Source: Polaribacter tangerinus (GTDB lineage Bacteria > Bacteroidota > Bacteroidia > Flavobacteriales > Flavobacteriaceae). From it: 64,000 nt of DNA. How positions within the stretch are numbered: position 1 is the first letter of the stretch; every line of letters starts with the position of its first letter. The notes below the pieces were generated by a model. It saw only the letters and a program-made list of their open reading frames with translations. It was not told the DNA's origin and ran no database searches. This document shows positions 18,797 to 19,981 of this stretch, piece by piece. The position numbers and the translations under genes were made by a program. The stretch covers positions 744,001 to 808,000 of the forward strand of contig NZ_CP150668.1 of assembly GCF_038024095.1 (NCBI RefSeq). Reading direction: 5' to 3'.

Positions 18797-18825
18797 TTGA
18801 TTTTTAAAAAAAGAATGTATATTTG
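18797..18825 (+). promoter_or_regulatory. Promoter of tRNA-Pro
   Basis: TTG at 18797-18799, an 18-nt spacer, then TATATTTG at 18818-18825 (perfect -7 element), 52 bp before the tRNA. Confidence 0.7.
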
Positions 18826-18877: not shown

Positions 18878-18952
18878 CGGGGTGTAGCGTAGCCCGGTCA
18901 TCGCGCCTCGTTTGGGACGAGGAGGTCGCAGGTTCGAATCCTGCCACCCCGA
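18878..18952 (+). tRNA. tRNA-Pro (anticodon TGG)
   Basis: A full cloverleaf: acceptor CGGGGTG/CACCCCG, anticodon stem CCTCG/CGAGG around the loop TTTGGGA (anticodon TGG), and T-arm GCAGG/CCTGC around TTCGAAT. The discriminator is A18952 and CCA is not encoded. Its last 30 nt are the left edge of the tandem repeat that follows. Confidence 0.96.
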
Positions 18953-18957
18953 CTAAG

Positions 18958-18987
18958 AATCCAGTAAGTTTGTTACTGGATTTTTTT
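18958..18987 (+). terminator. Terminator of tRNA-Pro
   Basis: Arms 18958-18967 and 18973-18982 around the loop GTTTG, ending in a T-tract. The same hairpin is copied in the two later repeat units (period 331). It separates the tRNA from the first GIY-YIG gene, 14 bp before that start codon. Confidence 0.9.
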
Positions 18988-19000
18988 ATTTCGACACACT

Positions 19001-19246
19001 ATGTTTTCAGTATATATTTTATTCTCTGAACAAATTCATAAATTTTATGTAGGACATACCAGTTTAACTATTCATGAAAGATTGAAACAACACCTTTATA
19101 ATCACAAAGGGTTTACTTCTAAAGCTAGAGACTGGAAGATAATACATAGTATAAAAGTAGAAGATAAAACAAAAGCCATTTTGCTCGAAATAAAAATAAA
19201 AAAAAGAGGAGCGAAAAGATTCTTGAACGATATAGCGTCACGCTGA
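19001..19246 (+). CDS. GIY-YIG nuclease, copy 1 (intact)
   Basis: 81 residues, a minimal stand-alone GIY-YIG nuclease domain. The GIY motif is V4-Y5-I6, the YIG motif Y16-V17-G18, the catalytic Arg is Arg27 in H-E-R-L and the metal-binding Glu is Glu63 in L-L-E-I-K-I-K-K. All expected residues are present only in this copy. The last codons and the stop lie inside the terminal hairpin of the cassette. It follows the tRNA-Pro terminator, so expression would need read-through or an unseen promoter. Likely role: DNA nicking or cleavage that maintains or spreads the cassette (inference). Confidence 0.8.
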   Translation: MFSVYILFSEQIHKFYVGHTSLTIHERLKQHLYNHKGFTSKARDWKIIHSIKVEDKTKAILLEIKIKKRGAKRFLNDIASR

Positions 19247-19253
19247 AGCGTGA

Positions 19254-19283
19254 AGGTCGCAGGCTCGAATCCTGCCACCCCGA
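19254..19283 (+). pseudogene. tRNA-Pro 3' fragment, second copy
   Basis: A 30-nt copy of the variable loop, T-arm and acceptor 3' side of tRNA-Pro. One T in the T-loop is C (GGCTCG for GGTTCG), so it has drifted. No 5' half precedes it, so no tRNA can form. Confidence 0.85.
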
Positions 19284-19331
19284 CTAAGAATCCAGTAAGT
19301 TTGTTACTGGATTTTTTTATTTCGACACACT

Positions 19332-19577
19332 ATGTTTTCAGTATATATTTTATTCTCTGAACAAATTCATAAATTTTATGTAAGACATACCAGTTTAACT
19401 GTTCATGAAAGATTGAAACAACACCTTTATAATCACAAAGGGTTTACTTCAAAAGCTAAAGACTGGAAGATAATACATAGTATAAAAGTAGAAGATAAAA
19501 CAAAAGCCATTTTGCTCGAAATAAAAATAAAAAAAAGAGGAGCGAAAAGATTCTTGAACGATATAGCGTCACGCTGA
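19332..19577 (+). CDS. GIY-YIG nuclease, copy 2 (motif glycine replaced)
   Basis: 81 residues, nearly identical to copy 1 but with Gly18 of the Y-V-G motif changed to Arg (GTAGGA to GTAAGA), plus I24V and R43K. The conserved glycine packs against the active site in this fold, so this copy is probably weak or inactive although its frame is open. The flanking cassette (tRNA fragment, terminator, terminal hairpin) is complete. Confidence 0.7.
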   Translation: MFSVYILFSEQIHKFYVRHTSLTVHERLKQHLYNHKGFTSKAKDWKIIHSIKVEDKTKAILLEIKIKKRGAKRFLNDIASR

Positions 19578-19584
19578 AGCGTGA

Positions 19585-19614
19585 AGGTCGCAGGTTCGAA
19601 TCCTGCCACCCCGA
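19585..19614 (+). pseudogene. tRNA-Pro 3' fragment, third copy
   Basis: A 30-nt copy identical to the 3' end of the functional tRNA-Pro, following directly on the terminal hairpin of unit 2. There is no 5' half. Confidence 0.85.
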
Positions 19615-19662
19615 CTAAGAATCCAGTAAGTTTGTTACTGGATTTTTTTATTTCGACACACT

Positions 19663-19845
19663 ATGTTTTCAGTATATATTTTATTCTCTGAACAAATTCA
19701 TAAATTTTATGTAGGAAATACCAGTTTAACTGTTCATGAAAGATTGAAACAACACCTTTATAATCACAAAGGGTTTACTTCAAAAGCTAAAGACTGGAAG
19801 ATAATACATAGTATAAAAGTAGAAGATAAAACAAAAGCCATTTTG
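19663..19845 (+). pseudogene. GIY-YIG nuclease, copy 3 (truncated)
   Basis: The first 61 codons match copies 1 and 2 (His19 is Asn), but the homology stops at 19845, before the codon for catalytic Glu63. The open frame continues to 19947 only through unrelated DNA, including the antisense of the tRNA-Val 3' end, so the tail is not a real domain. The catalytic Glu, the C-terminal helix and the cassette hairpin are all lost. Confidence 0.85.
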
Positions 19846-19871
19846 GGGATCAATACCAAAAGTTGTGGAAC

Positions 19872-19904
19872 AAAAAAATCCTTCACTTTTCGTGAAGGAT
19901 TTTT
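19872..19904 (-). terminator. Terminator of tRNA-Val
   Basis: Read on the minus strand: a GC-containing stem (ATCCTTCAC/GTGAAGGAT) with a 5-nt loop, followed by a run of T, just past the tRNA 3' end. Confidence 0.9.
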
Positions 19905-19906
19905 GG

Positions 19907-19981
19907 TGGGCAATGAGGGATTCGAACCCCCGACCCCCTCGGTGTAAACGAGGTGCTCTGAACCAACTGAGCTAATTGCCC
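19907..19981 (-). tRNA. tRNA-Val (anticodon TAC)
   Basis: A full cloverleaf on the minus strand: acceptor GGGCAAT/ATTGCCC with discriminator A, anticodon loop TTTACAC (anticodon TAC at 19944-19946), T-arm around TTCGAAT. CCA is not encoded. Confidence 0.96.

Follow-up and report, generated by a model that had tools for sequence, protein, structure and literature searches.

Tandem GIY-YIG nuclease cassettes behind a tRNA-Pro gene of Polaribacter tangerinus: a possible homing-like element living on tRNA genes

Transfer RNA genes are classic landing sites of mobile DNA and are normally entered by integrases; integrative elements at tRNA 3' ends restore the 3' end and leave a 3' fragment at their far side. 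In Neisseria, the small GIY-YIG nucleases of the Ssn family cut single strands site-specifically, at palindromic targets that are dispersed and bracket the gene, and in the RAYT-REP and IS200/IS605 systems a hairpin partner lies beside a small enzyme, an HUH transposase. The segB genes of phages lie near tRNAs, and phage T6 carries tandem repeats of tRNA plus truncated segB that result from SegB cleavage and homologous recombination, as the relevant passages of PMC13096335 describe. Here we analyse three tandem units, each with a small GIY-YIG nuclease gene, behind a tRNA-Pro gene in a 64,000-nucleotide stretch (the window) of the 2.69-Mb genome of Polaribacter tangerinus (G000:C1:744001-808000). 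Judged by sequence comparison, the unit is a member of a widespread class of tRNA-linked GIY-YIG cassettes akin to free-standing homing-type elements. We give about an even chance to the proposal that it is a minimal, homing-like cassette parasitic on tRNA genes, made of a single-domain nuclease gene and a damaged copy of the host tRNA with a conserved hairpin. Related loci are numbered L and genomes G.

The three units follow an intact tRNA-Pro(TGG) with an exact period of 331 bp (98% matches, 0% indels, 18923-19845; Tandem Repeats Finder, TRF). This agrees with an initial annotation made from the window's letters, and PF01541 is matched by all three nuclease copies. That annotation had counted 30 nucleotides (nt) of tRNA 3' end per unit; all three units in fact open with the final 31 nt of the tRNA at 18878-18953, unit 2 with one mismatch. 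From the tRNA 3' end each unit continues through a terminator-like hairpin with a T run to the GIY-YIG open reading frame (ORF). Units 1 and 2 end in a 16-nt hairpin, TCACGC-TGAA-GCGTGA (19238-19253 and 19569-19584), whose final base directly touches the next tRNA fragment, as the annotation had stated. Units 1 and 2 differ at 5/331 positions, and units 2 and 3 at 3/261. Three ORFs of at least 50 amino acids (aa) touch the 331-bp unit: the GIY-YIG frame, one of 58 aa on the antisense strand, and one of 68 aa that runs through the tRNA and reaches the unit only with its end. This bears out the annotated absence of an integrase. The genome has a second tRNA-Pro of identical sequence, without a cassette. 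The features are as follows.

18818..18825, + strand: TATATTTG, match to TAnnTTTG upstream of tRNA-Pro (sequence; putative promoter)
18878..18953, + strand: tRNA-Pro(TGG), intact, host gene of the cassette (ARAGORN)
18923..19253, + strand: unit 1, with tRNA 3' end, terminator, GIY-YIG copy 1 and hairpin (TRF, repeats)
18958..18987, + strand: terminator-like hairpin and T run between tRNA-Pro and GIY-YIG copy 1 (sequence; putative function)
19001..19246, + strand: GIY-YIG copy 1, 81 aa, catalytic residues present (ORF, PF01541, AlphaFold model)
19238..19253, + strand: hairpin TCACGC-TGAA-GCGTGA, in the anticodon-arm position of the tRNA copy (sequence, alignment)
19254..19284, + strand: tRNA-Pro 3' fragment, 31 nt, one mismatch, opens unit 2 (sequence)
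19254..19584, + strand: unit 2 (TRF, sequence)
19332..19577, + strand: GIY-YIG copy 2, 81 aa, with Arg in place of catalytic Gly18 (ORF, alignment)
19569..19584, + strand: second hairpin, identical to the first (sequence)
19585..19615, + strand: tRNA-Pro 3' fragment, 31 nt, opens unit 3 (sequence)
19585..19845, + strand: unit 3, truncated (TRF, sequence)
19663..19845, + strand: GIY-YIG copy 3 up to the break, without catalytic Glu63; the open frame continues to 19947 (ORF, alignment)

The array shares traits with several known systems. As with integrative elements, the tRNA 3' end is restored and a 3' fragment lies at the far side of the element; the units differ in having no integrase, in their size of 315-493 bp with the nuclease alone, and in the existence of mirrored cassettes, which have a 5' tRNA fragment instead. 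An integrase-borne island is ruled out for the window unit, since no integrase is found among its ORFs of at least 50 aa. The likeness to Ssn lies in the pairing of a conserved palindrome with a small GIY-YIG protein of a single domain. Here, however, the palindrome is part of a tRNA copy and barely recurs elsewhere in the genome of the window, and the tRNA copies on either side form direct repeats. The TCACGC hairpin is present at three places in G000, two of them inside the array, so that a dispersed palindrome bracketing the gene was not found in this genome, and a dispersed-repeat role of the hairpin is ruled out there. RAYT-REP and IS200/IS605 likewise combine a hairpin with a small adjoining enzyme, which is an HUH transposase there and a GIY-YIG nuclease here. 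A RAYT reading is ruled out for the window unit, as GIY-YIG is the only family above its cut-off and no Y1 HUH transposase is found. The nuclease gene is a separate ORF beside an uninterrupted tRNA and lies in no intron or intein; a group I intron is ruled out because the tRNA-Pro runs without a break and the copy next to it duplicates only part of it. As for a defence system, PADLOC gave no more than weak matches (E 0.0018 and 0.017), and this reading was rejected. As to a phage or virus origin, the protein of L037 matched no phage record and two scans of viral contigs gave no relative, with one protein each, which makes the absence weak. SegB of the T-even phages is alike in being a stand-alone GIY-YIG nuclease near tRNAs, with a tRNA-plus-nuclease segment amplified in tandem. 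It is phage-borne, and the passages of PMC13096335 that deal with it make no mention of a hairpin-bearing tRNA copy, whereas the cassettes treated here are chromosomal, single-domain, about 75-80 aa long, mostly accompanied by a second tRNA copy, and phylum-wide.

For the encoded protein, GIY-YIG is the sole family above its cut-off (PF01541 with 43.7, 33.4 and 32.7 bits for copies 1, 2 and 3; family cut-off 22.6), and the AlphaFold model of copy 1 has a mean predicted local distance difference test (pLDDT) score of 92.8. Y5, Y16, G18, R27, H31 and E63 are invariant in 18 aligned relatives and present in copy 1; we assume catalytic roles for the Tyr, the Tyr-x-Gly, the Arg, the His and the Glu of GIY-YIG enzymes. 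In copy 2 YVG has become YVR (G18R) at the invariant glycine, and copy 3 stops at 19845, just short of Glu63. On these residues copy 1 is probably active and copies 2 and 3 are probably inactive. The best sequence matches among solved structures are UPF0213 proteins, PDB 1zg2 (E 2.2e-10) and 1ywl (E 5.1e-9), which are like the window nuclease in sequence and whose entries are named hypothetical proteins. The remaining PF01541 matches in the genome are just two, frames of 602 and 456 aa that from their length are probably UvrC and a fused exonuclease. The nuclease protein is under purifying selection: the ratio of nonsynonymous (dN) to synonymous (dS) divergence is 0.04-0.15 in 11/12 pairs, one pair being saturated (dN 0.05-0.20 with dS 0.5-2.1 in 10/12 pairs, and 0.37 with 3.16 in one).

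Relatives were collected from the order and the phylum, with a profile, A1, built from 18 proteins. The order-wide profile search of 395 genomes gave 92 with a match at E 1e-14, and the phylum-wide search, also of 395 genomes, 197 with a match at E 1e-12. For the order set, 90 loci out of more matches were fetched (30 loci and then 60 more regions, taken in the order of the listing with some passed over), of which 12 were dropped because the first GIY sequence had already been counted. This leaves 78 distinct loci, the window's included. A gene was counted as near a tRNA if an intact tRNA lay within 400 nt 5' or 150 nt 3' of it, and this holds for 70/78 loci, 61 with the intact tRNA 5' (54 within 100 nt) and 9 with it 3' (8 within 30 nt). 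No tRNA is in reach at 8/78 loci; among these, L223 and L250 have fewer than 100 bases of sequence ahead of the gene, and in L225 a tRNA-Arg lies 560 nt upstream. In the phylum set (L293-L316 minus six duplicates of other numbers, plus 20 hand-picked regions) the gene is near a tRNA at 33/38 loci, one locus being counted twice (L312 is L329). A further 30 earlier loci, hand-chosen as tRNA-class, were kept apart from the 78 of the order set. Across 128 distinct loci there are 18 isoacceptor kinds for 12 amino acids. The statement in the initial annotation that stand-alone GIY-YIG genes near tRNAs are common in the phylum is borne out for genes of this type. Of the stand-alone GIY-YIG loci of the genus taken by Pfam rank (L043-L132), only 6/90 are near a tRNA, a contrast that goes beyond the annotation.

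The final 18 nt of the tRNA recur across the gene, with at most 2 mismatches, in 41/61 loci, and in 49/61 when 5 mismatches are allowed; the reverse-complement control gave 0 in both cases. Other tRNA genes with matching cassettes and their own 3' ends, which the annotation had proposed to look for, are found. Clades of the protein track tRNA identity, with 19 label changes for the labelled rows and 28 if the unlabelled are taken as a group, compared with a mean of 72.0 for shuffled labels, which were as low as observed in 0/200 cases. The Pro pair L039 and L207 lies inside the Arg clade, which shows that tRNA switches occur but are few. Among the titles and abstract openings listed in searches of the open-licence literature, none describes a tRNA-linked GIY-YIG cassette besides phage SegB, which is a weak absence.

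When the DNA behind the gene is aligned with the intact tRNA, a second copy of the same tRNA is seen in most aligned loci; it is unclear in L015, L017 and L040. At loci of the Val and Arg classes this copy retains much of the D arm, the T arm, the acceptor 3' end and often the terminator, and has TCCCGA...TCGGGA in place of the anticodon arm. In the Pro class of the window its 5' part is almost lost and the arm is TCACGC...GCGTGA, and in Asn and Asp loci the hairpin lies closer to the T arm. This replaced arm, like the G18R change of copy 2 and the break in copy 3, goes beyond the initial annotation. Extra inserted hairpins are held by the T arm of the second copy in L114, L125, L027 and L015. 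Mirrored cassettes, in the order tRNA 5' part, hairpin, GIY-YIG gene and intact tRNA, are found at Arg(TCG), Leu, Pro and Ser loci. In L010, L011, L014, L015 and L114 the real tRNA and its spoiled copy are followed by different terminators, and there the duplication ends at the tRNA 3' end. The TCCCGA/TCGGGA hairpin is present in 51/128 tRNA-linked loci, compared with 1/128 for a reversed-letter control and 2/83 for non-tRNA records. As the sequence of the hairpin is conserved and not its pairing alone, it suggests a recognised site. Genome G037 has more of the TCCCGA pattern, with 20 matches forward and 22 reverse against 0 for the control; some of these may be terminators. L104 has three separate CTGCCTGC-type hairpins in a 5' tRNA-Arg copy, as if repeatedly inserting.

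Tandem arrays are frequent. At least two GIY-YIG units, truncated ones counted, are present in 25/78 order-set loci and 4/30 hand-picked loci, with periods of 331-493 bases. The largest arrays are L287 with 8 units, L274 with 7 and L288 with 5, and in the phylum set L317 has 5 units with a 315-base period. Neighbouring copies are mostly 90-100% alike, so arrays form locally and often recently; low identities come mainly from truncated or diverged copies (L021, L041, L217, L251, L289). Genome G016 has its own three-unit array, with periods of 332 and 331, at the same tRNA as the window's. Unequal crossing-over, offered by the initial annotation as the plainer explanation, holds for the array as such, with copies near-identical inside it and different between species. 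The window array is one local tandem amplification of a unit that is not itself local. The invariant glycine is lost in one copy of five arrays (window copy 2, L025, L082, L270, L273); in L270 this is the sole amino-acid change in the domain, and in most of the five the remainder is little changed. The losses may reflect chance, relaxed selection or selection for inactive copies, and are suggestive only, as several variable columns reach equal or higher counts. In L205/L233 (G473) the array has a complete tRNA-Val(GAC) per unit and two identical nuclease copies with a 471-base period, and is perhaps an early stage or a tRNA amplification.

Two tRNA-Pro loci per genome are usual in the genus. 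We fetched 70 such loci, a subset of all, of which 31 are linked to trxB, 28 lie in a Ser/Pro/Arg cluster and 11 are in neither setting. A cassette is present at 4/31 trxB-linked loci and lacking at 27/31; no GIY-YIG gene was found at the cluster locus (0/28 fetched), and two of the 11 other loci carry one, L150 and the displaced array L165. In L141 and L146, which are trxB-linked and cassette-free, a decayed hairpin lies at the expected place, and the downstream gene is as in the occupied loci L036 and L140. The comparison of empty and occupied tRNA-Pro loci called for by the annotation thus gives empty, occupied and relic sites at the same locus in relatives. On a trxB tree of 25 loci the occupied-or-relic status takes 3 changes; three gains or one gain with several losses would both fit, and a clean loss of the cassette, by recombination of one tRNA repeat with another, is readily conceivable.

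These data bear on the idea of a device useful to the host, in which the hairpin-bearing tRNA copy would act at the 3' end of the nuclease mRNA, as a signal for processing or as a regulator, or in which the arrays would vary tRNA dosage as SegB amplification does in T6. A hairpin conserved behind the gene, the purifying selection on the protein and the intact tRNA copies of L205 would be expected of such a device, and SegB amplification is described as raising tRNA expression in the corresponding passages of PMC13096335. The hairpin-bearing copies are mostly broken, however, several with extra T-arm insertions, the hairpin precedes the gene in mirrored cassettes, and most trxB-linked sites do without a cassette; we regard a host device as very unlikely.

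Evidence for movement comes from cassettes that are more alike than their surroundings. Between G073 (L114) and G108 (L082) the GIY-YIG DNA is 97% identical and the adjoining folC-bearing flank 76%, with an identity profile of 93-98% between +109 and +409 and lower on either side. For L253 and L254 the values are 88% for the cassette and 70% for the flank. Two tRNA-Val loci of one genome (L018, L026) are 95-100% identical over a stretch that opens with the tRNA's first base and reaches to about +480, and at most 68% outside. By such alignments some cassettes have apparently been passed on as blocks, either from genome to genome or from one tRNA copy to another within a genome.

Several observations weigh against a parasitic cassette. 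The four window-type Pro cassettes of the genus with trxB in reach share one orthologous trxB-linked tRNA-Pro; the mobility suggested by the initial annotation is favoured by the block transfers (L114/L082, L018/L026), and the shared place of these four goes part of the way to refuting it. The array L165 is headed by no intact tRNA, and L150 lies outside both tRNA-Pro settings. A terminator-like hairpin between tRNA and gene is found by a simple test in only 43/73 loci, a clean 18-nt tRNA copy is absent in 20/61 order-set loci, the window's own hairpin is as rare in G000 as given above, and L205 has whole tRNA copies in its array, with no hairpin found. The nuclease tree has 73 columns, and 16/109 of its branches are starred. 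Furthermore, the upstream flank is common to 9/12 Val (folC), 9/9 Ala, 7/7 Asn and 11/16 Arg-set loci, and the divergence of flank and GIY-YIG is correlated with r = 0.76 in Arg (Val 0.48, Ala 0.34; 36 pairs each). By this measure the Arg class seems mostly to descend vertically, and flanks shared within a tRNA class mean that vertical descent with many losses fits too.

Such descent is the core of an immobile reading, by which an old tRNA-linked GIY-YIG host gene would be inherited vertically and often lost, its arrays arising by unequal crossing-over at the tRNA and terminator repeats. Common upstream flanks in most loci of each class examined, copies near-identical within many arrays, the Arg correlation and the mere 3 occupancy changes at tRNA-Pro, which could be one gain and losses, all agree with it. 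It fails to account for cassettes more alike than their flanks (L114/L082, L253/L254), for the one common block at L018 and L026, for the many kinds of tRNA, and for a patchy occupancy with existing empty sites, and we hold it to be unlikely. Free transposition as the main mode is ruled out, as most examined loci are orthologous within their class. Cassettes that are mostly faithful to their locus yet sometimes exchanged give the pattern expected for homing, not for transposition.

Under the proposal of a tRNA-parasitic cassette, the nuclease gene would be transcribed by read-through from the tRNA promoter, since the gap between tRNA and domain has a median of 52 nt and leaves little room for a promoter of its own. 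The match upstream of tRNA-Pro is to TAnnTTTG, which we take to be the -7 promoter motif of the Bacteroidota; this motif is matched within the window's terminator as well. The site recognised and cut by the nuclease would be its own hairpin within the damaged tRNA copy, with the cut probably made on single-stranded DNA; an intact tRNA adjoins the nuclease, and a cut at the hairpin of the spoiled copy is therefore likelier than one in the tRNA. A cut at this place lies between direct repeats of the tRNA end, so that its repair through homologous recombination would add units to the array or remove them. The broken end or an excised circle may then enter another copy of the same tRNA, guided by tRNA homology, and as every product retains an intact tRNA, spread would be cheap for the host. 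More tentatively, and at somewhat below an even chance, these cassettes may form a phylum-wide class of smallest autonomous mobile elements of about 315-493 bp. With a nuclease of about 75-80 residues and one hairpin, they would parasitise the tRNA genes of at least 12 amino acids, residing in a decoy copy, using the tRNA promoter, multiplying into tandem arrays through cuts at their own hairpin and spreading by tRNA homology alone, without integrase or transposase.

Classical homing, the idea of the initial annotation with a cut near the variable loop, would place the cut elsewhere, in the intact tRNA gene of cassette-free alleles, with repair copying the cassette in and the occupied allele being spared perhaps by low expression or by its downstream context. 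The protein clades that track tRNA identity are in line with this, as are cassettes mostly faithful to their locus and some exchanged, as with homing endonuclease genes. SegB, a free-standing GIY-YIG nuclease near tRNAs, cuts tRNA-containing DNA, according to the relevant passages of PMC13096335. A complete tRNA stands beside the nuclease gene, however, so that the enzyme would also cut the carrier at any site within the tRNA, and the recurrence of hairpins of the same sequence in different tRNAs would go unexplained. We consider classical homing distinctly improbable.

Downstream of the array lies one further tRNA.

19904..19981, - strand: tRNA-Val(TAC), adjoining folC (ARAGORN, ORFs)

Unit 3 breaks off 58 bases before this tRNA-Val and folC (19845-19904). 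The folC-linked tRNA-Val bears Val-type cassettes in several other genomes and none in the window. In two genomes the neighbourhoods are apart, with folC at 955563-956768 and the array tRNA at 1118849-1118924 in G016, and at 1508003-1509208 and 1609182-1609257, respectively, in G020. A rearrangement breakpoint seems to lie inside GIY-YIG copy 3, beside a tRNA that bears Val-type cassettes elsewhere. G016 (L165, L166) has a second copy of its three-unit array about 27.7 kb from the first, 98.2% identical over 5054 bases including downstream DNA. The second array starts within the tRNA at AATCCTGCCACCCCGAC, and the rest of the tRNA is missing.

Away from tRNAs, many stand-alone GIY-YIG genes of the genus lie between palindromic repeats, e.g. 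GTCATTCCTGCG..CGCAGGAATC and CTCGAGCGCAGTCGAG (34 records viewed). The flanks of non-tRNA GIY-YIG genes match each other inverted in 56/77 cases and direct in 49/77, the repeats being palindromes; random partners gave 6 to 17 of 77 for inverted flanks in five draws. This group resembles the Ssn family, and may be a GIY-YIG counterpart of RAYT-REP or Ssn-type systems.

Across the phylum, a nuclease of about 80 residues seems to enter tRNA loci of many kinds on its own, as a chromosomal counterpart to the amplification by phage SegB. Natural empty, occupied, relic, single and tandem sites make the minimal needs of a selfish element directly testable. Furthermore, such cassettes may account for part of the proteins labelled merely 'GIY-YIG nuclease family protein', and for some odd tRNA calls in Bacteroidota.

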